From contig CAIPEB010000777.1 of the NCBI GenBank assembly GCA_903863885.1, positions 1-52,519 of the forward strand: 52,519 nucleotides of DNA, in the 5' to 3' direction. Both the position numbers and the translations under genes were made by a program. The stretch is from an uncultured Planctomycetaceae bacterium (lineage in GTDB: Bacteria > Planctomycetota > Planctomycetia > Pirellulales > Pirellulaceae). Below are positions 2,185 through 46,724 of the stretch, piece by piece; position 1 is the stretch's first letter; every line of letters starts with the position of its first letter. Under the pieces are notes generated by a model. It searched no databases and was not told the DNA's origin. It was given only the letters and a program-made list of their open reading frames with translations.

Positions 2185-2334
2185 TTCAGTCTCGTGACCG
2201 CGTGACTCCCTCCACATTTTCCTTGGCCGGTCGCGTATCATGCTTGTTAAGGTGTTGTGCGGCTTATCATCGTGCCGACTCCTGCCAGGGAACAGAAAGG
2301 CATGCAGGCCGCGACCGCCGCAAGGGAGAAAGCG

Positions 2335-5064
2335 ATGAAGTCGGTATTAATTCTGGGGGCGGTGCTGAATCTAGTCAGCCTTCAAGCGGGCGCGGCGGAA
2401 ACGGTCGGCGGGCCATCCGCTCCTGTCCAGTCGAACATCGCGCCCCCCGCGAGTTCGACGGCGGAACGCCGCGCACCGGCGCAGGCCGACAACGGCAGCG
2501 GAAGTCCCATGACGCTGCGTGCGGCGATTGGCGACTTGATCAACGACTTCGGGCCGAAATATCCAGCGGGATTGGAGTATCTGCGTCGACTGGACGCGAT
2601 CGAGCGGCAGATGGCGTCGGGATCGGACTCGGCGCAAGCGGCCTTTGCGGCGTTGCAGCGCGAAGCGCTGGTCGCCAACCCGATGGTTCGCGATACGCCG
2701 ATCCTGTTCGTAACGCGCGAACAGTACCAGCCGGACCATCACAACACGGAGACGATTTTCCATACCGGCGAACCGAACAACGGAAGCTACCGGCCAGGAG
2801 GCCCGCTGAAGGTCTTGGACCCAGTCACAGGTCAGACTTTCGTACTGCTTGATCCCGGTCGGGAAGGTTTGATTCGCGACCCGGAAGTGCATTTCGACGG
2901 ACGAAAAATCGTCTTTGCGATGCGCAGGGCGCGCGATGAAAACTACTCGATCTACGAATTGAAAGTCGATCCGCAAAACGGCTGGGCAACTGTGCCCGAC
3001 GGTCTGCGGCGGCTGACGAACGAGCGCGACGCGACGGATATCGATCCCGTCTATCTGCCCGACGGGTCGGTAATTTTCTCGAGTACGCGGGAGCCGAAAT
3101 ACTGCCACTGCAACATGCACATCATGGCGAACCTGCATCGCATGGACGGTGACGGCGCGAACATCCACCAGATCGGTAAAAGCACCTTGTTCGAGGGACA
3201 CGCCAGCTTAATGCCGGACGGACGCGTTCTGTATTACCGCTGGGAATACGTCGACCGCAATTTCGGCGATGCGCAGGGGCTGTGGACCGTGAATCCGGAC
3301 GGGACCGGTCATGCGATCTGCTGGGCAAATAATCTGGCCAGTCCGCCCGCCGTATTCGACGGCCGCGCAATCCCCGGCACAGAAGCGATTGTTTGCACCT
3401 TCGGTTCCTGCCATGACCGCCCGTGGGGTGCGATGGCGATCGTAGACCGGAGCAGGGGACTGGACAGTGAGGAAGCGGTTGTGCGGATCTGGCCCGTGGA
3501 GGCCCGCTCGCTGGTCCAGAATGTGGAAGCCTTCATCTGTGACCACTTCGTGCCGTTGAGGGCTCGCTATGAGGATCCTTTTCCGCTGGTGGATCCGCGA
3601 ACCGGGAAAGGCGGCAAGTACTTCCTCGTGTCAAGAAACGTCAATTCCCTGCCTCCCGATAAACCCATCCGGTATTCGGCCGATCTGAATGAACTGGTGA
3701 TGGGGCTCTATCTGGTTGACGTGTTCGGCAATGAAGTGTTGCTGCACCGCGAAACGACGGGCTGTTTCGACCCGATGCCGTTGGCCGCCTCTCCGCGTCC
3801 GCCGGTGCTTCCCTCGCGGCGAGATTACGAGAGCCGCATGGGTCGAATGTATGTTGCCGACGTATATCAGGGAACGCATATGCAAGGGGTTCGGCGCGGG
3901 GACGTAGCAAGCCTGCGCGTCGTAGAGTCAGTCGAGAAACGGGTTTGGACCGACCCGCTGTGGCGCTGTGCTCAGTTCGCTAAAGGAACATACATTGGCG
4001 ATACGCTGAACCGCCCGGCCGTTTCCTGGGCCGGGTTCGAGGTAAAGCGCATTCTCGGAACCGTACCGGTCGAGGCGGACGGCTCGGCAAGTTTCGAGGT
4101 GCCCGCCGAACGGTTCGTCTATTTCCAGTTGCTCGACCGCGACGGCATGATGATCTCCACCATGCGTTCCGGCACGCAGGTTCAGCCGGGCGAGACGCAC
4201 GCCTGCATTGGCTGCCATGACCAACGCCTTGCGATCCAGACACCGTCGGGAAGTCCGCTGGCGCTGCAGCGTCAGCCCAGTCAACTGACCGGCTGGCACG
4301 GGGATACCCGCTCGTTCAACTACCTGGAGGAGATCCAGCCCATCTGGAACCAGCATTGCGTGTGCTGCCATGATTTCGGCCAGCAGTCGGAGGCCCGACT
4401 CGTGTTGGCCGGCGACAAGGAATTGGTGTTCAACGCCTCTTACGTCGAGTTGTTCCAGAATTGGGGACGGGAAGACGCGTGGCTCAACACGGTCGGCCTG
4501 GGACTAGCGCCGATCAAACCCGCCAACTCCGCCGGGGCACATCGCAGCCGCTTGGTCGAACTGCTGCGGCGCGGCCACTATGACGTCTGCCTGTCACCCG
4601 AGGAGATGAACCGGATCGTCACGTGGATCGACCTTGGCGGCCCGTACTATCCGGACTATGCCTGTGCCCATCCGACGAATGTGGCTGGCCGCGCACCGCT
4701 TTCAATCGCCCAGTTGCACCGACTGGAAAAGCTGACCGGACTGCCGTTGAGTGACGATCAGGGTAATCCAGGCTTCGCAGGACATCGGCTCTGGTTGTCG
4801 TTCGACCGGCCGGACTTGAGTCCTTGTTTGTCGAAACTCGAGAAGTCCGGCGAGGCCTATCGCGAGGCTCTGGCGATCATCCAGGCCGGACAGGCCGAGT
4901 TGCGGCAGACCCCGGAAGCTGACATGCCCCATTTTCGTCCATGCGAAGAGCATCAGATTCGGGAAGCGAAATACCAGGCCCTGCGCGAGCGTGAAGCCGG
5001 ACGCCGCCAAGCCATGGCCGAAGGCCGCAAAGCCTACGATGCCGGCATTTCGCCACGCGAGTGA
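2335..5064 (+). CDS. HzsA-related secreted multihaem protein with TolB-like propeller
   Basis: A 909-residue protein resembling the family of planctomycete proteins related to the hydrazine synthase alpha subunit. The start at 2335 follows AAGGGAGAAAGCG and gives a good signal peptide (MKSVLILGAVLNLVSLQAGA); the frame stays open upstream to 2257. The middle has TolB/WD40-like blades such as DIDPVYLPDGSVIFSST. Two CxxCH sites, C624-IG-C627-H628 and C675-VC-C678-H679, predict covalently bound c-type haems, so it should act outside the cytoplasm. The family is widespread in planctomycetes that do not make hydrazine, and there are no hzsB/C genes nearby, so hydrazine synthesis is not implied. The neighbouring SGNH hydrolase gene follows on the same strand and may be co-transcribed. 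Confidence 0.85.
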   Translation: MKSVLILGAVLNLVSLQAGAAETVGGPSAPVQSNIAPPASSTAERRAPAQADNGSGSPMTLRAAIGDLINDFGPKYPAGLEYLRRLDAIERQMASGSDSAQAAFAALQREALVANPMVRDTPILFVTREQYQPDHHNTETIFHTGEPNNGSYRPGGPLKVLDPVTGQTFVLLDPGREGLIRDPEVHFDGRKIVFAMRRARDENYSIYELKVDPQNGWATVPDGLRRLTNERDATDIDPVYLPDGSVIFSSTREPKYCHCNMHIMANLHRMDGDGANIHQIGKSTLFEGHASLMPDGRVLYYRWEYVDRNFGDAQGLWTVNPDGTGHAICWANNLASPPAVFDGRAIPGTEAIVCTFGSCHDRPWGAMAIVDRSRGLDSEEAVVRIWPVEARSLVQNVEAFICDHFVPLRARYEDPFPLVDPRTGKGGKYFLVSRNVNSLPPDKPIRYSADLNELVMGLYLVDVFGNEVLLHRETTGCFDPMPLAASPRPPVLPSRRDYESRMGRMYVADVYQGTHMQGVRRGDVASLRVVESVEKRVWTDPLWRCAQFAKGTYIGDTLNRPAVSWAGFEVKRILGTVPVEADGSASFEVPAERFVYFQLLDRDGMMISTMRSGTQVQPGETHACIGCHDQRLAIQTPSGSPLALQRQPSQLTGWHGDTRSFNYLEEIQPIWNQHCVCCHDFGQQSEARLVLAGDKELVFNASYVELFQNWGREDAWLNTVGLGLAPIKPANSAGAHRSRLVELLRRGHYDVCLSPEEMNRIVTWIDLGGPYYPDYACAHPTNVAGRAPLSIAQLHRLEKLTGLPLSDDQGNPGFAGHRLWLSFDRPDLSPCLSKLEKSGEAYREALAIIQAGQAELRQTPEADMPHFRPCEEHQIREAKYQALREREAGRRQAMAEGRKAYDAGISPRE

Positions 5065-5163: not shown

Positions 5164-6450
5164 ATGCCACGGCACCGCTTGATTTTCGGCCTATTCTTGC
5201 TGACGACGGTCCTGAGGGCACGGATGGCAGATGCCGCGCCGGATGCGTTTCCTCCCGCGTGCGCATTCCCGGACGGGTCTCGGCCCCCTGCGCTGCGCGC
5301 CACTCTCGAAAAACTGACGGCCGGCCAACCGGTGACCGTGGTATGCCTGGGTGACAGTGTGACTGGCGTCTATTACCACACCGGCGGACGACGCGCCTAT
5401 CCCGAGATGCTTGAACTGGCGCTGCGAGCTGCGTGCGAGCAAGCCCGTGTACGCGTCCTGAATGCCGGCATCAGCGGCCACAAGTCAGCGGACGGCCTGA
5501 AGCGTTTGCAATCCGACGTCCTCGACCACCATCCCGACCTGGTGACCGTGATGTTCGGACTGAATGATCTGACGGCTTTGCCGCTTGCGGATTTTCGTGC
5601 GAACCTGACGGAAATCGCGCAGCGATGTCGTGCGGCAGATGCCGCTGTTATCTTGTGTACGCCGAACTCCGTCATCGATACGCCCGGCCGGCCGATCCCC
5701 AAACTCGTCGAGTACTGCCAGGCGGTGCAGGAAGTGGCCGCCAAACAGCAGATTCCAGTGTGTGACGTGTACGGTGCGTTCGAGACGGTTCGCACCCGCA
5801 ACCCGTTGGCATGGCGACTGCTATTGAGCGACGAGATACACCCCAACATGGACGGCCATAAGCTCACAGCGGAGACGTTGTGCCGTACGATCACGGGTCG
5901 CGACGTATCGCTGCGCGAGGTGGGGCCACCACAACCTCTGCTCCCCAAGATGCAGGCCATGGTCAAGGCTGGCCGGCCCGTGCGTGTGCTGGCCATGGAG
6001 CCGCTGGACTTGCTGGTCGCCCCGGCGATCCGGGCCGTGCTGCCAGCGGCCGTGGTCGAAGTGCAACCCTGGCCCACGGCCGGTCAGACGCTGGCTCAGA
6101 TCGAGGCCGCCGCACAACGGGTGCGACAAGCGCCGCCGGATCTTGTCGTGATCGCCATCCCGGCCAGCGTGACGCCCGCCGACCAGTCTCCTTCAGAGGA
6201 ATCGATTCGCACACACAGTTGGATCCTGAATTGGTCGCTCAGCTTTGGCCGGCAGGAGTGGGACGTGGTTGTCGTCGCCCCCTCGGTCTTTTCGCCAGAT
6301 CCGACACCCGCAGAACAGGCGGCGGATGCTTTCTCGCGAAAGATGGGACATGCCCAGGACCTGCCTGTTGTCGCTCGCCAACCGGGTGACAGTTCGCCTC
6401 CGGCATGCATCCTCGAGGCTTGGTTTCGCACGCAGTGCGCCTTCCCGTAG
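5164..6450 (+). CDS. Secreted SGNH/GDSL hydrolase
   Basis: A 428-residue esterase-like protein. The start at 5164 follows AGGGGAGG and opens a signal peptide (MPRHRLIFGLFLLTTVL). All SGNH blocks are visible: block I CLGDSVTG with Ser65, block II NAGISGHKS with Gly, block III FGLNDL with Asn134, and block V SDEIHP with Asp223 and His226. Expected activity is hydrolysis of acyl esters, for example acetyl groups on polysaccharides. The C-terminal 180 residues after the SGNH domain form a second, partly degenerate domain (VRVLAMEPLDLLVAPAIR) of unknown role. It lies 100 bases after the HzsA-related gene on the same strand. Confidence 0.85.
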   Translation: MPRHRLIFGLFLLTTVLRARMADAAPDAFPPACAFPDGSRPPALRATLEKLTAGQPVTVVCLGDSVTGVYYHTGGRRAYPEMLELALRAACEQARVRVLNAGISGHKSADGLKRLQSDVLDHHPDLVTVMFGLNDLTALPLADFRANLTEIAQRCRAADAAVILCTPNSVIDTPGRPIPKLVEYCQAVQEVAAKQQIPVCDVYGAFETVRTRNPLAWRLLLSDEIHPNMDGHKLTAETLCRTITGRDVSLREVGPPQPLLPKMQAMVKAGRPVRVLAMEPLDLLVAPAIRAVLPAAVVEVQPWPTAGQTLAQIEAAAQRVRQAPPDLVVIAIPASVTPADQSPSEESIRTHSWILNWSLSFGRQEWDVVVVAPSVFSPDPTPAEQAADAFSRKMGHAQDLPVVARQPGDSSPPACILEAWFRTQCAFP

Positions 6451-6935
6451 TGCGAATCGCCCGAGTCGTGTACATCCTGCATTGCCGAATCCCTGATCTC
6501 GCCAAATAAGAAGGGAATCGGAACCCGGAGCGAAGCGGGCGAACTTGGCGGTCCATTTCCTGGTGACTGCGCCGGCCGTGTTCGTCGGGTCGGCGGTGTA
6601 TGGCGTCTTCACCCTGCCCGCCCTGAAACGAGTCTTCCAGGAGCGTCTCAGACCAAGGCGTGAGAAGGCCGACAAAGGAGGCCGCTGCCAGAGACTTGCA
6701 CGGTGCGATTTCGGTTCACGTTGAGGCCCGATTATATCGCAGTGGTGTTGAGGGTTCGCACGATCGTGCTAAAGTGCCAGAGTTTCCGGCTCAGCTTAAC
6801 ACAGTCCCGCGTCTTCGACCCTGAAGCAAACGAAGGCTGTTGCGTTTTCGTTGTTCTCGCCATGGAGAGCTGGCCGGTTGGTCCAATGGCTGCAGCCAAC
6901 GCAGACATCCTGAAACCAAGGGGGCGTGAAACAAC
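6451..6935. other. Intergenic region, mostly empty, with one gene remnant
   Basis: The first part carries a coding-like remnant described separately (6497-6724). The rest up to the next start shows no gene, tRNA or clear terminator. The last 20 bases hold a purine-rich ribosome binding site (AAGGGGGCG) for the 6936 gene. Confidence 0.5.
6497..6724 (+). pseudogene. Possible C-terminal remnant of a membrane protein
   Basis: An open frame that starts directly after a stop codon and has no good start. It reads NLAVHFLVTAPAVFVGSAVY followed by a Lys/Arg-rich tail, which looks like one membrane segment and a cytoplasmic end. I do not recognise the family. It may be the tail of a deleted gene, or chance. 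Confidence 0.25.
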
Positions 6936-7655
6936 ATGGACGCCAGCGAGAATCGCCGACGACGGCACACATCGCTCATCGCGCTCGTGCTCGGCAGCAT
7001 CCTGACATCGATCCCGCCGTTCTGCGAACCGCCGGCGGTCGGTGGCGAGGCAGACACCACGCCGCGTGCGAAATCCGTGAGGATCGTTTACCTGGTTTCC
7101 GCCGACAAAACCGTGCGTGAAGACTACCGTAAAGGCATCGAGACGGCCGCAAAGGATCTGCAATCCTGGTACGCAAAGCAACTCGGCGGCCCGACGTTTC
7201 GGTTGAACGAACCAGTTGTCGAGGTTGTGAAATCCGACAAGAAAGCGGATTGGTTCTACGGCCACCCTAACGGCGACAACAAGGACGACTGGGGCTTCAA
7301 CGACGAGGCGGCTCAAGCGGAGTATGCGGTCAATTTCCACCGGGTCTGCTTCGCCCATCCCGCCGTGCGAGCCATTACATGGTGGGACTTGGGCGACCAA
7401 GGGTCGTTTATTCCAGGTGGCGGGATGCTGCGAGAGGATCTATCGCCCAAGCCGGTCTACGAGCAATTAAAGCGACTGATCCACGAGGAGTGGAACACCA
7501 GGGCGTCGGGCACCACGGATGGCGAGGGGCGATTCAGCTTTCGGGGGTTCCTGGGAACTTACAAGGTAGTCGCCGCCATTCAGGGCAAGACAATCGAAAA
7601 GCAGTTCCACCTGGAAAAAGGAAGGGCGAACGAGATGACGGTCTCGCTGCCCTGA
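6936..7655 (+). CDS. Chimeric ORF: zincin N-terminus fused to a GH10 xylanase tail
   Basis: 239 residues in two parts of different origin. Residues 1-122 match the N-terminus of the zincin encoded at 32125-33144 almost residue for residue (for example VYLVSADKTVRED, AAKDLQSWYA, DNKDDWGFN). At about residue 123 the match stops abruptly. From there it reads as the C-terminal end of a glycoside hydrolase family 10 protein: AITWWDLGDQGSF, SPKPVYEQLKRLIHEEW, then a small beta-domain (FSFRGFLGTYKV). The zincin HExxH site and the GH10 catalytic glutamates are both absent, so the product is probably inactive as either enzyme. A signal-like hydrophobic stretch (SLIALVLGSIL) is kept. Start at 6936 follows AAGGGGGCG. 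It may be a relic of recombination or a misassembly. Confidence 0.7.
   Translation: MDASENRRRRHTSLIALVLGSILTSIPPFCEPPAVGGEADTTPRAKSVRIVYLVSADKTVREDYRKGIETAAKDLQSWYAKQLGGPTFRLNEPVVEVVKSDKKADWFYGHPNGDNKDDWGFNDEAAQAEYAVNFHRVCFAHPAVRAITWWDLGDQGSFIPGGGMLREDLSPKPVYEQLKRLIHEEWNTRASGTTDGEGRFSFRGFLGTYKVVAAIQGKTIEKQFHLEKGRANEMTVSLP
7071..7300 (+). repeat. Diverged duplicate of 32261-32490
   Basis: DNA alignment by eye shows roughly 85 percent identity with 32261-32490, ending sharply after GACTGGGGCTTCAAC in both copies. The preceding leader regions (6936-7070 and 32125-32260) are similar but more diverged. This marks the duplicated zincin N-terminus and the chimera junction. Confidence 0.75.
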
Positions 7656-7665
7656 TCCCACGCCT

Positions 7666-8046
7666 ATGCGAAGTTACTTGAAGACTCTTGTGGTTGGCGG
7701 ACTCCTGTCGCTTCCCTTCGTGGGGTTTGGGGCAGGCTTCATCGTCATGGGCGTGGATGCCACATTCCACGGATGGGCGTCGTTGGGCAAGCCCAAGCAC
7801 GATTGGTCCGGGCCATCTCGTCGGACTAATGACATCACCCGCCTGTATGGCCCTGGTGTGATTCTCGCCGGCGCTTCGCTGTGCGTTGGCGGTCTGCTCG
7901 TGATCCCGTCAGGGTTGATCCGAGACCATGGAATGGGACGCCAACACTGGCCGAAAGTCGTGCTGCTTTGGCGACTGGTCGGAGTCGGCACGGCAGTCGG
8001 CTTCGTTGTGTCGATACTTGCCTCGATCACCAACGTCCTTTGGTGA
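7666..8046 (+). CDS. Small membrane protein of unknown function
   Basis: 126 residues starting 11 bases after the preceding stop. Three hydrophobic segments are visible: about residues 7-28 (LVVGGLLSLPFVGFGAGFIV), 62-82 (YGPGVILAGASLCVGGLLVI) and 99-120 (LLWRLVGVGTAVGFVVSILA). No motif was recognised. It sits between the two chimeric ORFs, so it may have arrived with the same rearrangement. Confidence 0.6.
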   Translation: MRSYLKTLVVGGLLSLPFVGFGAGFIVMGVDATFHGWASLGKPKHDWSGPSRRTNDITRLYGPGVILAGASLCVGGLLVIPSGLIRDHGMGRQHWPKVVLLWRLVGVGTAVGFVVSILASITNVLW

Positions 8047-8114
8047 GGCTGAAACGTGATCCTGCAAATACCGAAATCACCGGCGCAATCGGCCCGGAAC
8101 CAAGAAAGCAGACA

Positions 8115-9524
8115 ATGACTCCAATCCGATTCGTGCTTGTGCTCACGGCGATCTTGGCGATGTTCGTTCATTTCGTCGAGGTGCTCTACGACAACTACAC
8201 GGCTGAGAAAGGACTCACGGCCGACTGGGGTTTCAGTTGCCTTATCACGGGCACCGAGAAGTCGATCCTGTTCGACACCGGGGCCAAGGCAGACGTTCTC
8301 CTCCAGAACATGGCGAAGATGCACGTCAGCCCCGGCGCTGCCGAAGCCGCCGTCATCTCGCACAACCACGGCGACCATGCGAGCGGGCTCGTCTCGGTGC
8401 TTGAGAAGAACGGCAAGATGACAGTCCATCTGCCGCCCTCCTGTCCCGAAACGACAGTCCAGCCAGTGGAGAAGCTCGGGGCAAAGGTCGTCACTGTCAC
8501 CAAGCCGGTAGAGATCTGCCGGGGAGCGTTCGTGAGCGTCAAGGCCTACACCAACCCGGTTGGCGAAACGCCGATCTCCATGGGCGACCCCTTCGTGCTC
8601 CAGCACGGCGGCAGGTATTACCTCTTCGGCACGAACGCCTCCAACGAGGGTTTCAAGTGCTTGGAGTCCGGCGACCTCGTACATTGGACGCCGAAGGGAT
8701 GGGCCTACCAGGAGACGGAGGACTCCTGGGCCAAATCGCACTACTGGGCTCCCGAGGTCAAGGAATACCGGGGCAAGTTCTATATGACCTACAGTGCCAT
8801 GCCGAAGAAGGCCGAGACGCCCAGGCTGCTCATCGCACTGGCCGTCGGCGACAAACCCGAGGGGCCGTACAAGGATCTCCATGCCCCATGGTTCGACTTC
8901 GGCTACTCGGCCATCGACGGACACATCTTCGTGGATGACGACGGCAAGCCGTACCTCTACTTCAGCCGGAACGGCGTCGAGGACGGCTACAGCTTCGGGA
9001 TCATCTATGGTGCGGCCCTGGCGGACGACCTATCGAAACCAGTCGGCGAGGCGGTGAAACTGATGGAGGCGGACCAACCGTGGGAGAAAGTTCGCTACGC
9101 CGAGAACCGTTGCAACGAAGGGGCCTTCGTGCTGAAACGCAAGGGGCGGTACTACATGACGTATTCGGCCAATCACACCGGATTCCCGCATTACGGCATC
9201 GGCTACGCCACGGCCGACAAACCGCTCGGGCCGTGGGTGAAGGCCAGCGAAAACCCGATTGCGGCGACCAATCCGGAGACTGGCGTGTCGGGGCCGGGAC
9301 ATAGCTGCATCACCCGATCTCCCGATGGAAAAGAGTTGTTCATTGTCTACCACACGCACGCCGATCCCAAGAAGACTTCCGGCGAGCGGGTGGTGAACAT
9401 CGACCGGCTGCAATTCGATGATGACGGGAAACTCAAGATCAAGGGGCCGACCCGCAACTCCCAGCCGATGCCGTCCGGTGCCGCTGACATCCCGCCCGAC
9501 GAAAGCGGCATTACGACACACTGA
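8115..9524 (+). CDS. Chimeric ORF: truncated metallo-beta-lactamase fold fused to GH43 glycosidase
   Basis: 469 residues from the ATG at 8115; the frame is open further upstream without a better start. Residues 1-137 are the N-terminal half of a secreted metallo-beta-lactamase-fold hydrolase: hydrophobic leader, SILFDTGAKAD, and the HxHxDH site H83-N-H85-G-D87-H88. The remaining metal ligands of that fold are missing. From about residue 145 a complete five-bladed GH43 domain follows: GDPFV (Asp158, general base), APEV, AIDGH (Asp268, pKa modulator), CNEGAF (Glu335, general acid). GH43 enzymes are arabinofuranosidases and xylosidases acting by inversion. The GH43 part could be active; the hydrolase part should not be. 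Such a fusion is unusual and pairs with the chimera two genes upstream. Confidence 0.75.
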   Translation: MTPIRFVLVLTAILAMFVHFVEVLYDNYTAEKGLTADWGFSCLITGTEKSILFDTGAKADVLLQNMAKMHVSPGAAEAAVISHNHGDHASGLVSVLEKNGKMTVHLPPSCPETTVQPVEKLGAKVVTVTKPVEICRGAFVSVKAYTNPVGETPISMGDPFVLQHGGRYYLFGTNASNEGFKCLESGDLVHWTPKGWAYQETEDSWAKSHYWAPEVKEYRGKFYMTYSAMPKKAETPRLLIALAVGDKPEGPYKDLHAPWFDFGYSAIDGHIFVDDDGKPYLYFSRNGVEDGYSFGIIYGAALADDLSKPVGEAVKLMEADQPWEKVRYAENRCNEGAFVLKRKGRYYMTYSANHTGFPHYGIGYATADKPLGPWVKASENPIAATNPETGVSGPGHSCITRSPDGKELFIVYHTHADPKKTSGERVVNIDRLQFDDDGKLKIKGPTRNSQPMPSGAADIPPDESGITTH

Positions 9525-9605
9525 GCAGTCTCCTTCGGACCAGCACCCATGACCAACGACCAGTCCGCCAAATGGAAACTCCGGCCTCGGAGGCGACTGC
9601 GATCT

Positions 9606-10145
9606 TCACTCGTTGGTCTCCTTCTTTTCAGTCTGCGTGGCGACTCTTCCGCCACGATTTCCACGCCCATGGCCACCCTGACCGCCTTGGCGGTTGCGGC
9701 GACAGCGGCCTCGACCGCCCGCCGCTGCGGCCCCCGCCTCCTGCGCCCGGTGAAAGCTCTTGCTTTGGCACGAAGGGCAACTTCCCGGCCGAGCGGTGCC
9801 AAACGGAACCTCCCACACGTGCCCACAATCAGCGCACTCGAATGCTCTTGTCTCAGCCATTTCTACTTGTCCTCCTTCGATTCGTAAGACCGTCCCCTCG
9901 ACCAACGCTTGGGCGACCTTCTTGCGGGCCGCTTCCACAATCCGACCGAAGGTCTGCCGGGACACTCCCATCCGCTCCGCAGCCTGCTCCTGGTAGAGCC
10001 CTTCGTAGTCAGCCAGCCGCAATGATTCGAACTCATCAACGGTGAGGACCGTCTCTTTGAGATCCCGACCGGGAATTCGGGCAGGCTTGAAGACGGAGTT
10101 GGCCGGAAGGGCACCGATTCGACGGCATCGTTGGGGGCGGGGCAT
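9606..10145 (-). CDS. DUF134 DNA-binding protein with zinc ribbon and Gly/Arg-rich tail
   Basis: 179 residues. The N-terminus MPRPQRCRRI and the block LTVDEFESLRLADYEGLYQ are typical of the DUF134 family, followed by a helix-turn-helix (AAERMGVSRQTFGRIVEAAR) at about residues 55-76. A zinc ribbon CADCGH...CPSCQS lies near residues 103-128. The last 50 residues are rich in Gly, Arg and Gln (GGRGRCRRNRQGGQGGHGRG), a disordered nucleic-acid-binding type of tail. DUF134 genes often sit beside NifX/NifB-like iron-molybdenum cofactor genes; none is present here. It is convergent with the GH43 chimera. Confidence 0.85.
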   Translation of the reverse strand: MPRPQRCRRIGALPANSVFKPARIPGRDLKETVLTVDEFESLRLADYEGLYQEQAAERMGVSRQTFGRIVEAARKKVAQALVEGTVLRIEGGQVEMAETRAFECADCGHVWEVPFGTARPGSCPSCQSKSFHRAQEAGAAAAGGRGRCRRNRQGGQGGHGRGNRGGRVATQTEKKETNE

Positions 10146-14658: not shown

Positions 14659-16485
14659 CTAGTTGCGATACTTCAGCCACGCATATAGCGTCTTCCGGGA
14701 AACTCCCAGTTGTCTGGCAGCCTGAGCTCGATTTCCGTTGCACGATTGCACGGCCTGCTCTGCTGCCATGTTCTGGCACCTCTTCGTATCGCCGCGTCCC
14801 CGTTGATGCAGGACGTCGGAGAGAGTGTCCGCGATCGGTCGTGGATCGATTGCCGCAGGGAGCGGCCCCGGGTCAGGACGCCCAACCAGGTTGTTCAGAG
14901 CACCAGGGAGAAAGTGTCGGCCCTCAAGCAACGACGCATTTTCGCGAATCGCTGCTTCACGCAGAACGGCCTCCAATTCACGGACGTTTCCTGGCCACCG
15001 GTGCTGGCTTAACTTGCCCATGAAGCGAGCGCTGATCTCGAACGTGCGTACGCCTTCGTCGACCTGCAAACGCCCCAAGATATCTCTTACGAGCAAAGGC
15101 AAGTCCTCTCGACGGTCGCGAAGCGGAGGGACGCGCAGGGTGATTTGACTGAGGCGGTAAAAGAGATCTTCGCGAAATCGCCCAGCGGCCACTTCATCCC
15201 GGAGCGAACGATTGGATGCGGCGAGAATCCGAACGTCAACCGGAATCGGCGCATCGGCTCCGACCGGAGTAATCTCCTGTTGTTGGATAGCACGCAGAAG
15301 TGCGACCTGTCCCCGGGGGCTCAGATCGACGATCTCGTCCAGGAAGAGTGTTCCCTTGCTGGCGAGTTCGAATTTTCCGCGGCGTCGACGATCGGCGCTG
15401 GTGAAGGCCCCTTTCTCATGGCCAAAGAGCTCGCTCTCGAGGAGCGAATCGGGAATGGCTCCGCAATTGAGGGTAATCATGGGATGGCCGCTGCGCCGGC
15501 TCAGATGGTGAATCTGCGCGGCGACGAGCTCCTTGCCGGTCCCGGTCTCTCCCTCGATACAGACGCTGATGTTTTGCGGGGCGACGCGGCGGATCAGGTC
15601 GTAGACCTCGCACATCGCAGGGGTTCGTCCGATGAGCGGACCAAATCCCTGCGACTGTCGTTCGTGGTCGACCGTCGTAAGAGATCCCCGAAATCGACGG
15701 ATCGTTGAAGTGATCGCAGCCTCGACCGGGAGACGTTCGAAGACCGATCCCCCGGCGAACCCCCTGACGTCCGTCTGGCGGATGAGGATCTGCAGATCTT
15801 CGGATGTCGTGACCGGACCACCGAACGCGAGACACAACGGGGGTCTCGAACTCGAGTTGGCCAGCGCCAGCATTTCGTTGAGCCGAGCCACGGACTGCTG
15901 AATCCGGTCGCGACGTTCACGGACATCATCGAATTCGCGGGTTAGTCCCAGGTTGAGTATCAGCCCGTCGACGCCGGCCTCGAGAAACTGGCGCACTTCC
16001 TGCGGGCTCAGGGCGAATCCAAATGTGGCCAATCCCACTGCCCTCGCCCAGCCGAGCATGGCGACTTCCGCGGCAGTCCCTGCCCCTGCCGATTCGAGGC
16101 ACTCGCGAAACCCTCCGTCCACGAAGCCAACGGCCGGCCAGTTGACTACTCCTTCGACGCCCCAGCCTCTCCACCGCTCTAAACACGCGCGCACGTCTTT
16201 TTCCGCGTCGACCGCGTATAGCCCGGCGACAACCGGTGTGTCGCGACGCTGTGGCAACAGATGCTCCCTCAGGAGTTGCTCGGTCTGCCGATTCGCATTC
16301 CCGAAAGGCAGGAACGCCGCAAGCGAGCCGACTCCATAAGTGCGGTAAACCCCGGCGTTGAGCGCCAGCAACAGGTCGGCGCCGGCTTCGATCGCGCAAC
16401 GGGCCACAAGTCCCGATCCCGCAACAACCGCCACGATTGGGCGGCGATCCGATTTCGAATCGATGAGGTAACGCAGCGTAGGCAT
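14659..16485 (-). CDS. Sigma-54-dependent regulator with N-terminal TIM-barrel sensor (PF09370-like)
   Basis: 608 residues. Residues 1-270 form a TIM barrel of the TIM-br_sig_trns / PEP-hydrolase-like family. They are clearly homologous to the enzyme encoded divergently at 16688: FLPFGNAN, TPVVAGLYAVD, NWPAVGFVDGGFR and GGSVFERLP correspond to [32 protein letters not shown] and GASSLERLP. Residues 281-515 are the AAA+ domain: Walker A GETGTGKE (312-319), Walker B GTLFLDE (378-384), and the sigma-54 contact loop, here GAFTSA (359-364) instead of GAFTGA. The C-terminal Fis-type helix-turn-helix is GNRAQAARQLGVSRKTLYAW. It should bind upstream sites and activate sigma-54 promoters on sensing a ligand related to the partner enzyme's substrate. 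Gene order and the predicted promoter support control of the 16688 gene. Confidence 0.92.
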   Translation of the reverse strand: MPTLRYLIDSKSDRRPIVAVVAGSGLVARCAIEAGADLLLALNAGVYRTYGVGSLAAFLPFGNANRQTEQLLREHLLPQRRDTPVVAGLYAVDAEKDVRACLERWRGWGVEGVVNWPAVGFVDGGFRECLESAGAGTAAEVAMLGWARAVGLATFGFALSPQEVRQFLEAGVDGLILNLGLTREFDDVRERRDRIQQSVARLNEMLALANSSSRPPLCLAFGGPVTTSEDLQILIRQTDVRGFAGGSVFERLPVEAAITSTIRRFRGSLTTVDHERQSQGFGPLIGRTPAMCEVYDLIRRVAPQNISVCIEGETGTGKELVAAQIHHLSRRSGHPMITLNCGAIPDSLLESELFGHEKGAFTSADRRRRGKFELASKGTLFLDEIVDLSPRGQVALLRAIQQQEITPVGADAPIPVDVRILAASNRSLRDEVAAGRFREDLFYRLSQITLRVPPLRDRREDLPLLVRDILGRLQVDEGVRTFEISARFMGKLSQHRWPGNVRELEAVLREAAIRENASLLEGRHFLPGALNNLVGRPDPGPLPAAIDPRPIADTLSDVLHQRGRGDTKRCQNMAAEQAVQSCNGNRAQAARQLGVSRKTLYAWLKYRN

Positions 16486-16567: not shown

Positions 16568-16630
16568 ACATGAAGTCAATCGGCTCATTTATTGTCCGCA
16601 TTTTCAAGCGGTTTCGCGAAGTGCCACAAC

Positions 16631-16646
16631 CGGCCCGGCATTTGCT
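16631..16646 (+). promoter_or_regulatory. Predicted sigma-54 promoter (-24/-12)
   Basis: CGGCCCGGCATTTGCT has GG (16632-16633) and GC (16644-16645) exactly ten bases apart and matches TGGCACGN4TTGCW at all but two of the defined positions. Transcription would start near 16656, about 30 bases before the ATG at 16688. Confidence 0.65.
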
Positions 16647-16687
16647 ACCGCAGGTCGGTACACCCAGTCACCTTTCGGGAGGTATCC

Positions 16688-17533
16688 ATGCGACAGCAAC
16701 GCGAAACCATCCTGGCGCGTCTGAACGAGAAGATCTCCCGCAGGCAGCCGATCATCGGCGGCGGAGCTGGAACAGGCATCAGCGCGAAGTGTGAGGAGGC
16801 GGGGGGGATTGACCTGATCGTGATCTACAACTCCGGCAGGTACCGCATGGCTGGCCGCGGCTCGCTTTCTGGATTACTGCCTTTCGGAAACGCCAACGAC
16901 GTTGTGAAGGAGATGGCGCGGGAAGTACTGACGACGGTGAAGCAGACGCCGGTCATCGCCGGTGTGTGCGGTGTCGATCCCTTCATGTTGCGTGATTTCT
17001 TCCTGCGTGAACTGATGGAACTGGGATTCTCGGGGATTCAGAACTTCCCGACCGTCGGCCTGATCGACGGCACATTCCGCGCGAATCTCGAAGAGACTGG
17101 CATGGGTTTCGGCCTGGAAGTTGATTGCATCGCCGCCGCTCATCGACTGGGGATGCTGACCACCCCCTACGTGTTTGATGAAGCGCAGGCCACGGCCATG
17201 GCCCAGGCCGGTGCCGACATTCTGGTTGCTCACATGGGACTGACGACCGGCGGGTCGATCGGTGCAGTAACCGCCACCTCAATGGAACAATGCGCGCGAC
17301 GGGTGACGGCGATTGCCGATGCCGGACGACGCGTGCGTGAAGATATCATCATCCTGTGCCACGGCGGTCCTATCGCCATGCCGGCCGATGCGCAGTTCAT
17401 GTTGGACCATTGCGATATTCACGGGTTCTACGGCGCGAGTTCCCTGGAACGGTTGCCAACGGAAACGGCGATTCAGAAGCAGGTCGCTCAGTATGTGGGA
17501 CTGAAGGTACCAGATCGTCGCATGCAATCGTAG
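16688..17533 (+). CDS. PEP-hydrolase-like TIM-barrel enzyme (PF09370 family)
   Basis: 281 residues; the start follows CGGGAGG by six bases. The protein is almost entirely the TIM-barrel domain: [70 protein letters not shown] and [18 protein letters not shown]. Annotated relatives are called phosphoenolpyruvate hydrolase family proteins, though the reaction is poorly established. They are usually encoded next to a Tm-1-like (UPF0261) protein; no such gene is present here. The divergent gene encodes a sigma-54 activator whose sensor domain is a paralogue of this enzyme, and a -24/-12 promoter lies just upstream. Confidence 0.88.
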
Positions 17534-25659: not shown

Positions 25660-25824
25660 TCAAGCGTGCCGATGAAGCTGCCGTGCTTCTTTGACAGTCT
25701 GCTGAAGCCGGTAAGTGCCTTCTTCAGAGCCGAGCAGCTCGACGTACCAGTAGACCGCCTACGTTTCACGCCGAGCGTGGCCGGCGATTAGCTGCAACTC
25801 GGCGTCGGTCATCCCCTGCTTTTT
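25660..25824 (-). pseudogene. Tyrosine recombinase (integrase) C-terminal remnant
   Basis: The minus strand reads QGMTDAELQLIAGHARRET, the GH-A/S-R catalytic region of phage-type integrases. An in-frame TAG (25759-25761) follows, then AVYWYVELLGSEEGTY, where the tyrosine nucleophile segment belongs, and a stop at 25660. Only this tail remains. Further downstream on the minus strand (25532-25659) the frame DPDEFVGCLQDAAALSGFL looks protein-like but was not recognised. The remnant overlaps the last codons of the neighbouring large gene in another frame. Confidence 0.6.
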
Positions 25825-28800
25825 ATTCCGATGTGTTTGGACCGGTTTTCTGGCGGATGAGCACCGATCGCTGAGCCGCGTCGAAACGGAACTCGCCGAC
25901 TTTCGCGACCCAGGCCGCGTCGCTCACGGGAGATGACCGGACGATCTGGAACGGCCTCACGGCCGCCTTGTCCGACGTCCGTCCGTCGGCGACTTTTTGC
26001 GCGGCCAGATGCTCCGCTTCGCTGGCCGACAAGGCACGGCCATACAGTCTCACATCGCGGATCTTTCCGGAGAAGTAGTCCACCTCGCCAACGCCGATCC
26101 GCAACGGACTTCTCGACGTGAGATCGTATGCGGCCGGATCAAAGTTGGACGATTCGGCAACGAGTTGTCCGTCGACGAATAGCTCCAGTCTGTCTCCGCG
26201 GCGGACGGCCACCAGATGATGCCAGCCGGGGCCGAGGTCGCGATCGTACGACGCGCAGCGTCCCGCTTCCATGCTCCACACCGTGCCGCGGAAATCGCAC
26301 GGCGCGTCGAGCCGCGAACTAGTGCAACTCCCCAGGCTGGCGAACTGCTTGCCCTGGAAGGTCGTCAGACTGGTCACGCGAGCCCATTCGTTCGAGTCCT
26401 TGAACTCGTAACCGGCCGGTTCGAGAAACCGGCGTACCGACATCCACGCCGCGCTGCCCGGCTCTGGCGGCGCGGCGGGGCGCCGCACACGCCGCTGGGG
26501 CTCGGTTTTCGTTGCTGCGGCCTGGACCGGTGTGCCAGTCGCCGCAGTCGGGTCGAAGCGAAACACCTCGGCCCGCGGGATGGTGCCGCCGTAGAGTTGG
26601 CCGTTGTAAACGGACAGCGCGTTGATCTCCAACGCATCGCCCAAACGCCCCAGATCGGTCCAGTTCCCGTCGGCCTCCAACCGGCACACATGCCCCTCCG
26701 GCCAGGTCGTTGCGTGCAAACGCCCGCGATAGACTTCGAGGGCATGAACCTGATTGCAGTGATCTTCGCGGCCTTGCGGGTTGCCGATCAGCGACCACTC
26801 CTGTCCATCGAAGGCCCAAACGCCCGCGGGGTTTAAGACACCCGCGTATAACTTGCCATCATGGATACCCAACGGATGCGCGTAATTGGGAAACCTGCCG
26901 CACTCTTTCCACTGCCGCTCGCCGGCATACACGTAACACCGACCGTCCTCCGCGGACACATAGAGTCGGCCGCGATACGAAGCGAGGCCGAACAGGCGCC
27001 GACATTGGCCCGGCTGTCCGCAGTCTTCCCACGATTTGCCGCCGGCATAACGATACACGCAGCAGAAGTCGTCCAGGGGCTCTTTGATACCCACGCGTGT
27101 CCAGTCATAGGTCCACGTTCCGACATACAGACTCCCGTTGTGAACGACCATCGGCCCCACACCATGCGTTCGCCGGTCGCCGGTGCGTCCGCAGTCCTCC
27201 CATTGCTGTCCGCCGGCATAGCGGAAAACGTGGCACCAATCCTCGGACTTCTCCGCGTCCGTAATGGCCGCGTACAGATGTCCGTCGAACACGGTCAACG
27301 AATTGCTCACGTAGTTGCTCGTCGCACTCGGACGGCCGCAGTCCTCCCACGCCGGCTCTTGCGCGTTGTCAATACTGAAGTAAACGTGCCGATCGTCGCC
27401 GTGCGAACTGTATCCGCCGGCAGTCGACTTCAACGTGAGATTCACGCCGCGTCGCGTGGCCGCATCGTATTGCGACACAACATCACCGAACACATCATCG
27501 ATCTCTTTCTCAGTGTGGACCCACGCGGCGAACGAGAAGTCCCGCGAGCCCAGCTGCAGCGTGCGATGGGCCGGGATCTCGATAAAGGCGCTCCGCCCAT
27601 CAAAAGTACCGTCTTCCAACTTCACACCGTGATTGATTCCGTGCAGCCCGTTGCCCGAGTGATCGCGGCAGTCACCGCGCAAAGGCCAGTGGCCAATCAG
27701 GCCCGAAACGGATGTTTCGGACACTGTCGCGGGAGACGACTTGCTATCCGGCTCTGGGCCCGGTGCTGGAGGCGGCGGCGGTCCCGCGTCCAACTCCTTC
27801 AGCAACTCGCGCAGCCGCGTGAGCGCGTACGGCGAGCCGTATGGCACTTTTAAACGCCCGGCAGAGGACTCCTCGATGAGATAGATGCCCAATACGGCGC
27901 CGCCGCGCAGCTGTTGGATCAACCCAAGTTTGCCCGCGACGTATCTGCGGATCTCTGCCAACTGCGCATCGACTTCTTCGTTCGCGGCTCCACCGGGTCG
28001 CAGAATCACACGAAACGCAGCCTCCAACTGCGGGTCATCAGGCCTTTGCGCCGCTGCCGGCCGAGGCCGCGGCTCTACCGATGTCTTGGCTGCTTCAACC
28101 GCGGGAATCGCGGCTACGAACTGAACGGCCGAATCGGGCCGGTCGACCGTCAGGGTTTGGGCTGCGAGCGGGCCATCGTAGGGATGCACCTCGATACGCG
28201 TGGCAGCGCAGCCAAGCTGTTCGACTTTGTGCCGCGACAGGGGCGCGGGGCGAGTGCGGCCCTGGACCCACAGGTCGATGCCAACCGCCCGCAAGGGACT
28301 CGTGCCGTCTTCGCAGTTGCCCGGCGCGATCATGGCCCGCGAGTTATCTAAATCGGCCAGGTCCACGATCTGGGTGTAGAAGTTGCCGGGCTGCGACCAA
28401 ATCGTGCCCGTGTCGAGACACGTGAGAGGCGGAGAGACGATATCGAGTGACGGATCGATCTTCGGCATCTGCAGGGGCGCCATGCCGTGATAGGGGATCG
28501 TGATCGTCCGCCCGCCGCCCGCCGGAGCGGCCGGTTGGAGACGATCTGTCCAGTCGTCCGCGACTCCGGCCCCTCGTCCGCGGCCTGTCGTGCCTTGCGC
28601 GGACGCCTGCAGCCACTTCTTCAGGTAGGTCCTTTCACGTTCGCCGGCTGGTGTCGCGCTGTTTTCGCCGAAACCGGCGGCCAGATGCCGCGCCAGGTTA
28701 GTGACTCCGCCCATACCAGCGCCGTAGACATCGTTCAGCCCCGCTCCGCGATAGGGCGTCAGGACGTTTCGCAGTGCGGCCAGCGCCGGATAGTCCGCCT

Positions 28801-30520
28801 GCGTCTCAGTTCGCAGGTCCCAGCCGCGTACCGCGCCGATCAAACGCTTCACGGCGACGTCCTCGACTTGATCTTCGTCGGCCACCTTGATCGCGATCGG
28901 CAGGAGCGAGGTGAGCAGCGGATTAACCGAGTCGCGATGCACGAGTGCCTCGAAGTCCTCGACACCGTACTTGTGTGTGCCGGTGAGCAACTGCTGAAGC
29001 CGCCACGATCGTCCGGTGTGTCCATTGCCGCCGGTACCCAGTCCGAGGTCGTACGGGTACCAGGTGCCGACCGGCATGTTGTTGGCATGGCTGATGAAGC
29101 CTTGTTCGGGATTGAGCATGTGGGGCAGTTCATCGAGCGGGATGCGGCCGCTGATCTCCTCCCGACCTGTCCAGCCCTCTTGCGCCATTCGCGGCGAGCG
29201 AACGGTGTGCGGGCGATGCACGAGCGTGTGATAACCCAAGTTGTTTTGGTCATCGGCGTAGACGATGTGCAGGCCCGGGTCATAGTAGTATTCCATCGCC
29301 GCGCGAAATTCGGTCCAGTTGCTGGCCGTCATGAACGCGAGCATTGCCCGCACCGTCGTCCCGCACTGCACGGTCTGAGGGTCGTGCAACACGTGGGCTT
29401 CGCCGGAACGGTTGGTTTTGAGCAGCGAGTTGAACACGACACCGTGCCGGGTTCCGAGCACTTCCTGCACGATCTCCGGACCGTCTTTCACGCGAATGCG
29501 TTCCAGCCGACGCGTGAACGGTTCGGCCTTTCCCTCGAACAGGTAGCCTTGGCCGTCGTCAGTGAGCTTCTCGACAAAAACCACTTGTGATCCGGCACCC
29601 AGCGCCGACGCACCCCACGCGATGTGGCGATTGAATCCGATGAACAGGCCCGGGCAACCGGGCACACCCAGACCGCGGGCGTCGATTGGCCCGGCAGCCA
29701 AATGAAACTCATGGAAAAACGGAGGCGAGTTCAGCGGCAGCTGCGGATCGCTTTCCAGCAACGGCTTGCCGGTCTTCGAGCGCGCGCCGCTTACGGCCCA
29801 AGCGTGGCTCATTTTCGGACCTTCGTTCGGCGTGCCCTGCAGAAGGAACCCGGACATCCTCGGTCGGGTCTTCAGTCGCCGGTAGGCCTCCGCGTCCTTC
29901 GCCATCTCCGCTTCCGATACAATGGCCGCAGCGTCCTCCACCGCCATGTGGAACTGTTTCTCCGCCGCGACCTCGCCCACCTGAGCGACGAGTTCCTGGA
30001 AGCGGTGGTACTGCGTGACCGCCTGATCGCTGAACGGCGAGCCAAGCGCCAGGACGGCCCGCGCGGCCAATAGACAGTCGGCGGGCGTCCAGGGTTCCGG
30101 CGCGGCCCCCAATGGCTGAAACCGGCTCGCGACGGCTTCGTGATGCGCCGATGTCCAGGCATTGACCCCCGCAGCGTACGACGCCAGCCAGCTCTGCATT
30201 TCGGACGGCAGCTTTGTCAGGGCTTCCTGACTCCAGACCGTGTAGCCCGCAATCCGCGATTCGCGGTCGGCCTGCACCCATTCCGCTCCGAAGGCCTCCG
30301 CCAATCGCCCAGCTCCTTTTCGCCGCGCCAGCTCCATTTGCACGCGACGATCTTCGGCGCACGCATATCCGAGTGCGAAGAAGCCGGCCTCCGTAGTCTC
30401 AGCGAAAATGTGGGGCACGCCCCAGGGATCTCGTAGAACTTCGGCAGCGTGTGCCGCACTGTCGCGAGTTGACAGACTGGTCAAAGCGATCAGAACGACG
30501 ATGCTCAACTGGCGAGTCAT
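25823..30520 (-). CDS. Giant penicillin-acylase-family protein with LamG and inserted beta-propeller
   Basis: 1565 residues, start after AGAGAGG. A signal peptide is followed by a penicillin-acylase-type Ntn-hydrolase domain (about 27-790): DPWGVPHIFAET, GYACAEDRRVQMELARRKGA, and the likely autocleavage nucleophile Ser238 in KMSHAWAVSGARSKTGKPLL (SNNW in relatives). Later come GLFIGFNRHIAWG and GFISHANNMPVG. Residues 790-940 are a linker with a Pro-rich stretch. A LamG half begins at about 940 (GLIGHWPLRGDCRDHSGNGL). At about 1060-1325 come six or seven propeller-like blades, each with a tyrosine-rich strand and WEDCG or similar. A second LamG half follows at about 1400-1530 (GWHHLVAVRRGDRLELFVDG). 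Expected role: extracellular amide hydrolysis, such as acyl-homoserine lactones or amidated glycans; the substrate is unknown. Confidence 0.85.
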   Translation of the reverse strand: MTRQLSIVVLIALTSLSTRDSAAHAAEVLRDPWGVPHIFAETTEAGFFALGYACAEDRRVQMELARRKGAGRLAEAFGAEWVQADRESRIAGYTVWSQEALTKLPSEMQSWLASYAAGVNAWTSAHHEAVASRFQPLGAAPEPWTPADCLLAARAVLALGSPFSDQAVTQYHRFQELVAQVGEVAAEKQFHMAVEDAAAIVSEAEMAKDAEAYRRLKTRPRMSGFLLQGTPNEGPKMSHAWAVSGARSKTGKPLLESDPQLPLNSPPFFHEFHLAAGPIDARGLGVPGCPGLFIGFNRHIAWGASALGAGSQVVFVEKLTDDGQGYLFEGKAEPFTRRLERIRVKDGPEIVQEVLGTRHGVVFNSLLKTNRSGEAHVLHDPQTVQCGTTVRAMLAFMTASNWTEFRAAMEYYYDPGLHIVYADDQNNLGYHTLVHRPHTVRSPRMAQEGWTGREEISGRIPLDELPHMLNPEQGFISHANNMPVGTWYPYDLGLGTGGNGHTGRSWRLQQLLTGTHKYGVEDFEALVHRDSVNPLLTSLLPIAIKVADEDQVEDVAVKRLIGAVRGWDLRTETQADYPALAALRNVLTPYRGAGLNDVYGAGMGGVTNLARHLAAGFGENSATPAGERERTYLKKWLQASAQGTTGRGRGAGVADDWTDRLQPAAPAGGGRTITIPYHGMAPLQMPKIDPSLDIVSPPLTCLDTGTIWSQPGNFYTQIVDLADLDNSRAMIAPGNCEDGTSPLRAVGIDLWVQGRTRPAPLSRHKVEQLGCAATRIEVHPYDGPLAAQTLTVDRPDSAVQFVAAIPAVEAAKTSVEPRPRPAAAQRPDDPQLEAAFRVILRPGGAANEEVDAQLAEIRRYVAGKLGLIQQLRGGAVLGIYLIEESSAGRLKVPYGSPYALTRLRELLKELDAGPPPPPAPGPEPDSKSSPATVSETSVSGLIGHWPLRGDCRDHSGNGLHGINHGVKLEDGTFDGRSAFIEIPAHRTLQLGSRDFSFAAWVHTEKEIDDVFGDVVSQYDAATRRGVNLTLKSTAGGYSSHGDDRHVYFSIDNAQEPAWEDCGRPSATSNYVSNSLTVFDGHLYAAITDAEKSEDWCHVFRYAGGQQWEDCGRTGDRRTHGVGPMVVHNGSLYVGTWTYDWTRVGIKEPLDDFCCVYRYAGGKSWEDCGQPGQCRRLFGLASYRGRLYVSAEDGRCYVYAGERQWKECGRFPNYAHPLGIHDGKLYAGVLNPAGVWAFDGQEWSLIGNPQGREDHCNQVHALEVYRGRLHATTWPEGHVCRLEADGNWTDLGRLGDALEINALSVYNGQLYGGTIPRAEVFRFDPTAATGTPVQAAATKTEPQRRVRRPAAPPEPGSAAWMSVRRFLEPAGYEFKDSNEWARVTSLTTFQGKQFASLGSCTSSRLDAPCDFRGTVWSMEAGRCASYDRDLGPGWHHLVAVRRGDRLELFVDGQLVAESSNFDPAAYDLTSRSPLRIGVGEVDYFSGKIRDVRLYGRALSASEAEHLAAQKVADGRTSDKAAVRPFQIVRSSPVSDAAWVAKVGEFRFDAAQRSVLIRQKTGPNTSE

Positions 30521-32124: not shown

Positions 32125-33144
32125 ATGAACGACAGCCTGAGCGGCCCGCGACGGCACACCTTGCTCATTACCGCCATGCTCTGCAGCAGCCTGGCATCGG
32201 TCGTGCCGGTTTGCGAACAAGTCACAACGGGTGCTGAGTCCGTCGTCCCGCCGCGTCCGAAATCCGTGCGGATCGTCTACCTGGTTTCCGCGGACAGAAC
32301 CGTGCGGGAGGACTTCAGCAAGGGCATCGAGACGGCCGCTAAGGACCTGCAGTCCTGGTACGCCAGGCAACTCGGCGGCCCTACGTTCCGGCTGAACGAA
32401 CCAATCGTCGAGGTTGTGAAATCCGACAAGAACGCCGATTGGTTCTACAGTCATCCCAATGGCGACAACAAGGACGACTGGGGCTTCAACAACGGCCTTG
32501 CCGAGGCGCAACGACTGGTGGGCACTCGACACTTCGACGGGCAGTACATTTGGGTCATCTACTCGGACGGCCCAGGCAACAAAGGTCGGGGGGGCGATGG
32601 CGTGACGGTCCTGCCTGAAGATGACCTCCTCGGTCTCGTCGGGCAGCACCCCGAGCAGAAGGAAGTGAAGCGCTGGATCGCAGGACTCGGACACGAACTG
32701 GGCCACGCTTTTGGCCTGCCCCACCCGCGCGATACCGAGAAAGATGCAGATGCCATCATGTGGACGGGGATTTACGGCAAGTACCCCAACCACACCTACC
32801 TCACCGCCGAAGACAAGGCGATCCTGCGACGCAGTCCGTTCTTCTTTCGTCCCGACGGCGAGCCTGTTGCCAAGCCAGCCAGGGCTATCGAGAAGTACAT
32901 TTACGAAGGAGGTTCGTTCACGAGGTATGAGACGGACGGAGTGTCTGAATGGGTGGAGTCCAAGGCGGACGAGACCGCCCGATATCGCTTTGCCGAGGCG
33001 GGACGGGACCGGCAGTGGATTCGCCTGTTTGACGCCGGCCGAGGCATGACACTGCGTCTGCCGGTCGATGGCGGCACGTGCTCGTGGTCGTCCGACGATG
33101 GAAAGAACTGGAACGCCCTCTATCAAATCACCAAAGCGCAGTGA
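32125..33144 (+). CDS. Secreted zincin metalloprotease (HExxHxxGxxH)
   Basis: 339 residues with a signal-like leader (LLITAMLCSSLASVVPVC). The catalytic site is HELGHAFGLPH (His190, Glu191, His194, His200), a metzincin-type zinc site. The upstream part (SVRIVYLVSADRTVREDF) starts the fold with the usual beta strand. The C-terminus has a possible sandwich domain (GMTLRLPVDGGTCSWSSDDG). It should cleave extracellular proteins or glycoproteins. The N-terminal 122 residues are duplicated in the chimera at 6936; this copy is complete and appears functional. Confidence 0.85.
   Translation: MNDSLSGPRRHTLLITAMLCSSLASVVPVCEQVTTGAESVVPPRPKSVRIVYLVSADRTVREDFSKGIETAAKDLQSWYARQLGGPTFRLNEPIVEVVKSDKNADWFYSHPNGDNKDDWGFNNGLAEAQRLVGTRHFDGQYIWVIYSDGPGNKGRGGDGVTVLPEDDLLGLVGQHPEQKEVKRWIAGLGHELGHAFGLPHPRDTEKDADAIMWTGIYGKYPNHTYLTAEDKAILRRSPFFFRPDGEPVAKPARAIEKYIYEGGSFTRYETDGVSEWVESKADETARYRFAEAGRDRQWIRLFDAGRGMTLRLPVDGGTCSWSSDDGKNWNALYQITKAQ
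32261..32490 (+). repeat. Diverged duplicate of 7071-7300
   Basis: Second copy of the duplicated zincin N-terminus, about 85 percent identical by eye. The two copies diverge abruptly after the codons for DWGFN. Confidence 0.75.
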
Positions 33145-46607: not shown

Positions 46608-46724
46608 CATCTCGTCAAATTCGCCGCGAACCAGACGGCTGCATTGCATCGATCACACGAACGTGCTCTGCTCCGCAGCGCCCGCTGCGCATCGAACCGA
46701 TATTCACGATCTCCGGTCAGACCA

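Follow-up and report, generated by a model that had tools for sequence, protein, structure and literature searches.

Gene content of the locus

The window, that is, the whole stretch of DNA analyzed (52,519 nucleotides), is an entire contig (C777) of an 11.0-Mb assembly in 789 contigs, with a completeness of 96.26 and a contamination of 2.57. The open reading frame (ORF) at 6936 to 7655 (+) encodes 239 amino acids and is open in translation, with no stops or frameshifts. Sequence comparison confirmed that it is an in-frame join of codons 1 to 122 of a metzincin-type protease gene to the 3'-terminal 117 codons of a GH10 xylanase gene. The next enzyme gene, 8115 to 9524 (+), encodes 469 amino acids and is a second in-frame join, in which an MBL-fold front is followed by a complete GH43 domain. 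An earlier, sequence-only reading of this DNA had recognized the first chimera and overlooked its neighbor, which has a PF00753 front and a PF04616 back. An intact zincin paralogue is found on the same contig, 25 kb from the first fusion. The features discussed below are the following.

6936 to 7301 (+): zincin front (codons 1 to 122), which includes the export region and the beginning of the protease domain; sharp end at 7301
7302 to 7655 (+): GH10 xylanase tail with the barrel end (approximately codons 123 to 178) and a small C-terminal domain (approximately codons 186 to 238)
7666 to 8046 (+): ORF of 126 amino acids between the fusions, of no known family (no Pfam or NCBIfam match)
8115 to 8525 (+): MBL-fold front, PF00753 positions 8 to 88 of 196; the last clearly shared motif ends at 8525
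8547 to 9524 (+): complete GH43 domain, PF04616 positions 1 to 287 of 288 (E value, 2.4e-60)
32125 to 33144 (+): intact zincin paralogue of 339 amino acids with HELGHAFGLPH in its translation; Matrixin match below the cutoff (E value, 0.00024)

Elsewhere in the window, a gene at 2257 to 5064 (+) encodes 935 amino acids with a hydrazine synthase alpha middle domain (E value, 2.4e-29) and weak PD40 propeller repeats; relatives of it lie beside a GH10 gene on contig C217 of genome G023. At 14659 to 16485 (-), a PEP-hydrolase-like domain is fused to a sigma-54 activator with a helix-turn-helix end, and a complete PEP-hydrolase-like gene at 16592 to 17533 (+) is divergent from it; the two are possibly a regulator and its target. 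The product of 25823 to 30520 (-), of 1,565 amino acids, contains a penicillin amidase domain (residues 26 to 767) and, near its end, a laminin-G-like domain (residues 1432 to 1501). In the 961-amino-acid product of the gene at 46644 to 49529 (+), residues 570 to 916 form a Type ISP C-terminal specificity domain, before which no Pfam match was found at an E value of 0.001.

The zincin front and the first join

A blastn alignment of the fused ORF with the intact zincin region spans 6929, 7 nucleotides before the ATG, to 7305 at 312 of 383 identical positions (81%). In the folded-domain part, 198 of the 225 nucleotides ending at 7301 (88%) are the same as in the paralogue, slightly above the roughly 85% previously estimated. 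Identity falls abruptly at the join, from 108 of 120 nucleotides up to base 7301, the last base of codon 122, to 33 of 120 in the 120 nucleotides that follow, and the sequence beyond is GH10. The earlier claim of an in-frame zincin/GH10 chimera with its reading frame kept through the join was thus borne out. It had also placed both the end of the zincin match and the start of GH10 sequence at DWGFN; the break in the match stands and is sharp at 7301, but the GH10 part begins at codon 123, well before the ITWWD quoted as its start.

The 30-nucleotide exact run ending at 7301 is common to both zincin copies. By our reading, the two parents could share 0 to 4 nucleotides, at most about 4, at the first join, and a join with so few shared bases fits illegitimate recombination. 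Base composition by codon position is similar on both sides. The kept frame was considered as a sign of selection and dropped; it says little by itself, since the GH10 tail can be read through without a stop in two frames of three. A 20-nucleotide stretch of zincin sequence just before the join (7280 to 7299) is 85% alike to one at the start of the MBL part (8216 to 8235), and both encode DWGF; this likeness is probably due to chance.

In the intact paralogue, HELGHAFGLPH is what we take to be the metzincin motif HExxHxxGxxH. A check of the translation of ORF 6936-7655 found no such zinc motif, and all metzincin sequence past DWGFN is gone. The N-terminus of the product is hydrophobic, which makes its export plausible.

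The GH10 tail

From codon 123, the sequence DEAAQAEYAVNFHRVCFAHPAVRAITWWD aligns without gaps with the six closest intact GH10 genes, which match the tail at 58 to 67% identity, namely L007 of G023 and L066 to L070 of G353, G404, G273, G161, and G285. Among solved structures, the best match to residues 2 to 102 of the 117 given is the beta-xylanase 8b73 (E value, 6.7e-15), and Pfam PF00331 covers its positions 249 to 308 of 311 with an E value of 0.037 and 13.7 bits against a cutoff of 22.1. GH10 matches in the genome searches start at codons 115 to 120 and end at codons 236 to 238, and the DNA match to G023 begins at base 7302; the GH10 part thus begins directly at the join. The sequence-only reading was right to assign the tail to the GH10 C-terminus and missed the small domain after the barrel, which gives a weak, below-cutoff CarboxypepD_reg match and is also present in intact members of this GH10 group.

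The WEVVNE and HITEY stretches of intact L007, whose VVNE and ITEY are presumably the GH10 catalytic stretches, precede the join point, and the fused gene has neither. Its barrel lacks the front, so that a complete barrel with both catalytic glutamates is absent. The loss of both active sites, as had been proposed, holds: HELGHAFGLPH and the VVNE/ITEY stretches all fall outside the fused parts.

A complete GH10 gene was to be sought elsewhere in the genome or in relatives. The six intact genes above provide it in relatives, at the stated identity over the tail. No intact parent was found in the genome itself, where the family search gave four distant GH10 matches (on C98, C240, C555, and C11), none with this tail; the one on C11 was rejected as a parent, being a diverged GH10-like protein with an end of its own. 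With the complete GH10 of G023 as the query, the own-genome search recovered the fused tail, the four distant GH10s again, and two matches on C614, seven in all. The latter two cover the region before the barrel at 39% and 32%, in frames of 1,437 and 1,399 amino acids, and were not counted as the missing GH10 front.

The second fusion and the ORF between

The second join lies somewhere between approximately 8526 and 8546. An MBL gene on C203 of the same genome matches codons 7 to 140 of the second fusion at 48%, and a GH43 gene of G023 matches codons 141 to 454 at 80%. The GH43 part contains the complete domain with three acidic residues, and the stretches MGDPF, AIDGH, and NEGAF, in which the catalytic acidic residues presumably fall, are identical in the G023 gene. 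In the MBL-fold part, HNHGDH is present and PF00753 is matched only over positions 8 to 88 of 196, short of the full domain and its complete set of metal ligands. The GH43 domain of the G023 gene is preceded by approximately 300 residues of a different type, SGNH-like in our view. Comparison of the GH43 part with G023 gave a dN of 0.143 and a dS of approximately 1.55, as would be expected of a maintained enzyme. With the domain intact and the stretches that contain the acidic residues preserved, the second product probably retains GH43 activity with a borrowed N-terminus.

The 126-amino-acid ORF between the fusions had no match at an E value of 0.001 in 60 relatives except itself and none in the 19 gene neighborhoods described below. 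Six weak matches among 396 genomes (E values, 0.006 to 0.0097) we take to be chance.

Distribution and gene neighborhoods

In 396 genomes of the order, at least 131 match the first fused protein and at least 177 the second at an E value of ≤0.001, with the best 7 and best 4 candidates per genome scored, respectively. Among the matches listed, no alignment extends over both parts of the second protein and none spans the first join; the search for the same junction in other genomes, as had been proposed, therefore did not recover it there. Three matches that extended appreciably upstream of the first join are GH10 or align from codon 124. One, in G415 (codons 52 to 217), proved on retrieval to be a GH10 with a weak left extension (27.7% identity over 191 columns), L089 of G326 is likewise GH10, and the alignment of L090 of G342 began at codon 124 when searched again. 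A scan of genome contigs with the first fused protein gave four loci, all of them GH10 genes of Lachnospiraceae. Outside the genome itself, zincin relatives among the matches listed from the 396 genomes were found in G003, G269, and G396. The panel of 60 genomes holds none of the same genus, and the fusion could be shared by close relatives beyond the sample.

Twenty-two proteins of the window served as queries (E value, 1e-4) against 19 neighborhoods of genes for zincin, GH10, MBL, and GH43 proteins; the matches listed, which do not include those of gfo18556 and s54_14662, are to the two fusions and the zincin, and two of the four parents never occurred in one stretch. Neither a zincin beside a GH10 gene nor an MBL beside a GH43 gene was seen in any relative's stretch, in these 19 neighborhoods or in a comparison of eight stretches. 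One of the eight, C217 of G023 (not among the 19), contains a weaker GH10 relative (40%), two relatives of the 2257 to 5064 gene (28 to 30%), a relative of the GFO/IDH/MocA gene present in the window, and no zincin. We take this likeness to be common families met again.

Integrity of the assembly

Searching the assembly with the zincin returned the gene itself, the fused front, and one short match on C614 (codons 183 to 225, around the zinc motif). The back half of the zincin was not found elsewhere in this 96%-complete assembly, nor was a GH10 front of this subfamily. An MBL query returned a full-length match on C203, both halves on C204, and the fused front, and no leftover MBL back half was found in the assembly. 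A DNA search with 6450 to 9650, in which 40 of 59 candidates were scored, gave 11 matches, and among these no repeat bridges either join. A false join of intact genes would leave the other halves behind; since these were not found and no bridging repeat was seen, misassembly of intact genes behind the two joins appears unlikely. The similar base composition by codon position on the two sides of the first join also speaks for its being real.

Age and constraint

Over the folded part (75 codons), the two zincin copies show 20 synonymous and 7 nonsynonymous differences (dS, 0.58; dN, 0.041; ratio, 0.07); over the N-terminal 46 codons, the ratio is 0.98. Comparison with three outgroups placed the seven nonsynonymous changes on both copies, with some unplaced. 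Had the fused copy been unconstrained for its whole branch (approximately half of dS), we estimate that approximately 50 nonsynonymous changes would be expected (0.29 × 176 sites), against at most approximately 5 that can be placed on it. Either the fusion came late on the branch that began with the duplication, or constraint on the zincin part persisted.

The tail was aligned with 30 GH10 relatives, the weaker-match loci L012, L013, L015, L016, and L018 to L020 being left out. A one-branch model with 6 of the 31 tail sequences gave an omega of 0.023 on the fused tail versus 0.09 elsewhere (twice the log-likelihood gain, 4.4), with the branch length saturated at 12, and we use this result only to say that omega is not raised on the fused tail. 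At residues conserved to 90%, the tail differs at 3 of 34 positions. One of these is a gap common to close relatives; the other two are specific to the fused tail, in which H replaces Y at residue 135 and F replaces W at residue 158, whereas the nearest relatives keep Y and W. L007, L066, and L067 have one change each besides the shared gap. The two changes may be read as a slight sign of relaxation. Structure models were poor, with a mean pLDDT of 49.2 for the first fused protein (six-row alignment) and 40.3 for P0003 (single sequence), and they support neither claiming nor denying that the product folds.

Origin of the fusions

The reading we favor, with moderate confidence, is that ORF 6936-7655 is a real composite gene private to its lineage. 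Illegitimate recombination involving little or no microhomology would have linked the front of a zincin copy, from approximately the start codon to codon 122, to a GH10 xylanase gene cut in its middle, the remainder of both parents being lost at the site. The two fusions lie side by side, which suggests that both arose while a hydrolase cluster was being rearranged in a single phase, for example, by one block replacement; alternatively, this phase may have consisted of two partial duplications that each recruited a 3' part where they landed. The first product would have neither protease nor xylanase activity, being probably catalytically dead and at most an exported remnant protein, and the second would be a GH43 enzyme. 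The sharp join at 7301, the lack of any listed match spanning the joins, the missing leftover halves, and the similar style of join next door speak for this reading. Two points speak against it: no stretch compared from a relative has the parents of either fusion side by side, so that the ancestral gene order is not reconstructed, and the zincin part is under strong purifying selection, which a dead by-product would show only after a recent fusion. The joins do not call for foreign DNA, which likewise favors their being real: the zincin paralogue shares their contig, and the GH43 gene closest to the second fusion comes from a genome of the same family. The composite could have formed in two ways. 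In one, which is close to partial duplication with recruitment, only the front of the zincin gene was copied, and it inserted into a GH10 gene and acquired the GH10 3' end; in the other, the zincin gene was copied whole, and a deletion or block replacement later truncated the copy. Homology to the paralogue is confined to the interval from 7 nucleotides upstream of the ATG to the join, although the DNA farther upstream could have diverged, and the stretches compared contained no prefusion locus.

That the joins are artefacts of a fragmented assembly is an idea to which the 789 contigs and the occurrence of two unusual joins no more than 2.6 kb apart lend some color. Against it are the missing zincin back, GH10 front, and MBL back, the lack of a repeat across either join, and the fact that both joins are in frame; moreover, a wrong path through the 30-nucleotide exact run at 7301 would only swap which zincin copy carries the GH10 tail. 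We consider such an origin very improbable. An ordinary fused pseudogene, formed when one deletion joined adjacent zincin and GH10 genes, with the second fusion as a separate accident, would be the simplest single step and would agree with the loss of both active sites and the two changed conserved tail positions. Such a pair occurs in none of the 19 neighborhoods, however, and stops and frameshifts are absent while dN/dS is low in the zincin part. This account, which we judge unlikely, overlaps the favored one; what sets it apart is chiefly the event invoked and the view that the second fusion is unrelated.

The low ratio of 0.07 over 75 zincin codons at a dS of 0.58 is also what a selected new protein would leave, one made, exported, and used since the zincin duplication, for example, in a noncatalytic binding or structural role that relies on the small C-terminal domain. 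The omega of the tail that is not raised and the open frame without stops would agree, as would the start of homology only 7 nucleotides upstream of the ATG, which is the pattern that copying of the front alone would give. We regard this as improbable to the same degree as the pseudogene: two folded domains are interrupted at the join, conserved Y and W residues of the tail are altered, the ratio in the export region is near 1, and recent fusion of an intact copy would give the same signals, while the poor structure model (pLDDT, 49) decides nothing. A broader conjecture would have one process giving exported or zinc-hydrolase fronts to polysaccharide-degrading backs, with both genes in use, the second as a working GH43 and the first as a noncatalytic exported protein under selection since the zincin duplication; we think this decidedly unlikely.

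Comparison with known systems

The first 122 residues of the fused gene resemble the metzincin-type protease at 32125 to 33144 and its relatives in G003, G269, and G396, with 68 of 75 residues identical to the window paralogue in the folded part, but the fused gene is without HExxHxxGxxH and everything after DWGFN. Its last 117 residues resemble GH10 xylanases with a small C-terminal domain (8b73 and the intact genes of G353, G404, and G023), from which it differs in having neither the barrel front nor the two catalytic stretches. Judged by its sequence, it is neither a GH10 xylanase nor a metzincin but a composite gene, a kind already known; both fused genes consist of nonoverlapping parts that match different families. 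A literature search found no published account of this zincin/GH10 fusion, which is no proof of its being unpublished. Both parental families are known, the join can be placed within a few bases, the paralogue is 25 kb away, and a second fusion adjoins, so that it becomes testable here whether such hybrids are a by-product or raw material. If the gene is only a remnant, it is a warning for annotation, as homology would lead ORF 6936-7655 to be labeled as one of the two parental enzymes, xylanase or protease, and neither label can be right.

One study reported 320 composite gene families exclusive to haloarchaea (Meheust et al. 2018, PMC5992828). The prokaryotic composite genes described there are similar in that their parts come from different families and the combination is limited to one lineage. 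They differ in being gene families, whereas here there is one genome, the cuts lie inside folded domains, and two such genes adjoin. In partial duplication with recruitment, the derived copy holds part of the parent and completes its frame with other sequence (Katju 2012, PMC3449122), and so does the first fusion. The terms, which include chimeric duplicates, were made for eukaryotic duplicates with introns. As described there, the recruited sequence lacks matches in the remainder of the genome; in the present case, the recruited part is a C-terminal segment from a known enzyme family whose parent gene was not found in the genome. The combination of cuts within folded domains, a sharp join with a parent paralogue 25 kb away, and two fusions within 2.6 kb strikes us as uncommon.
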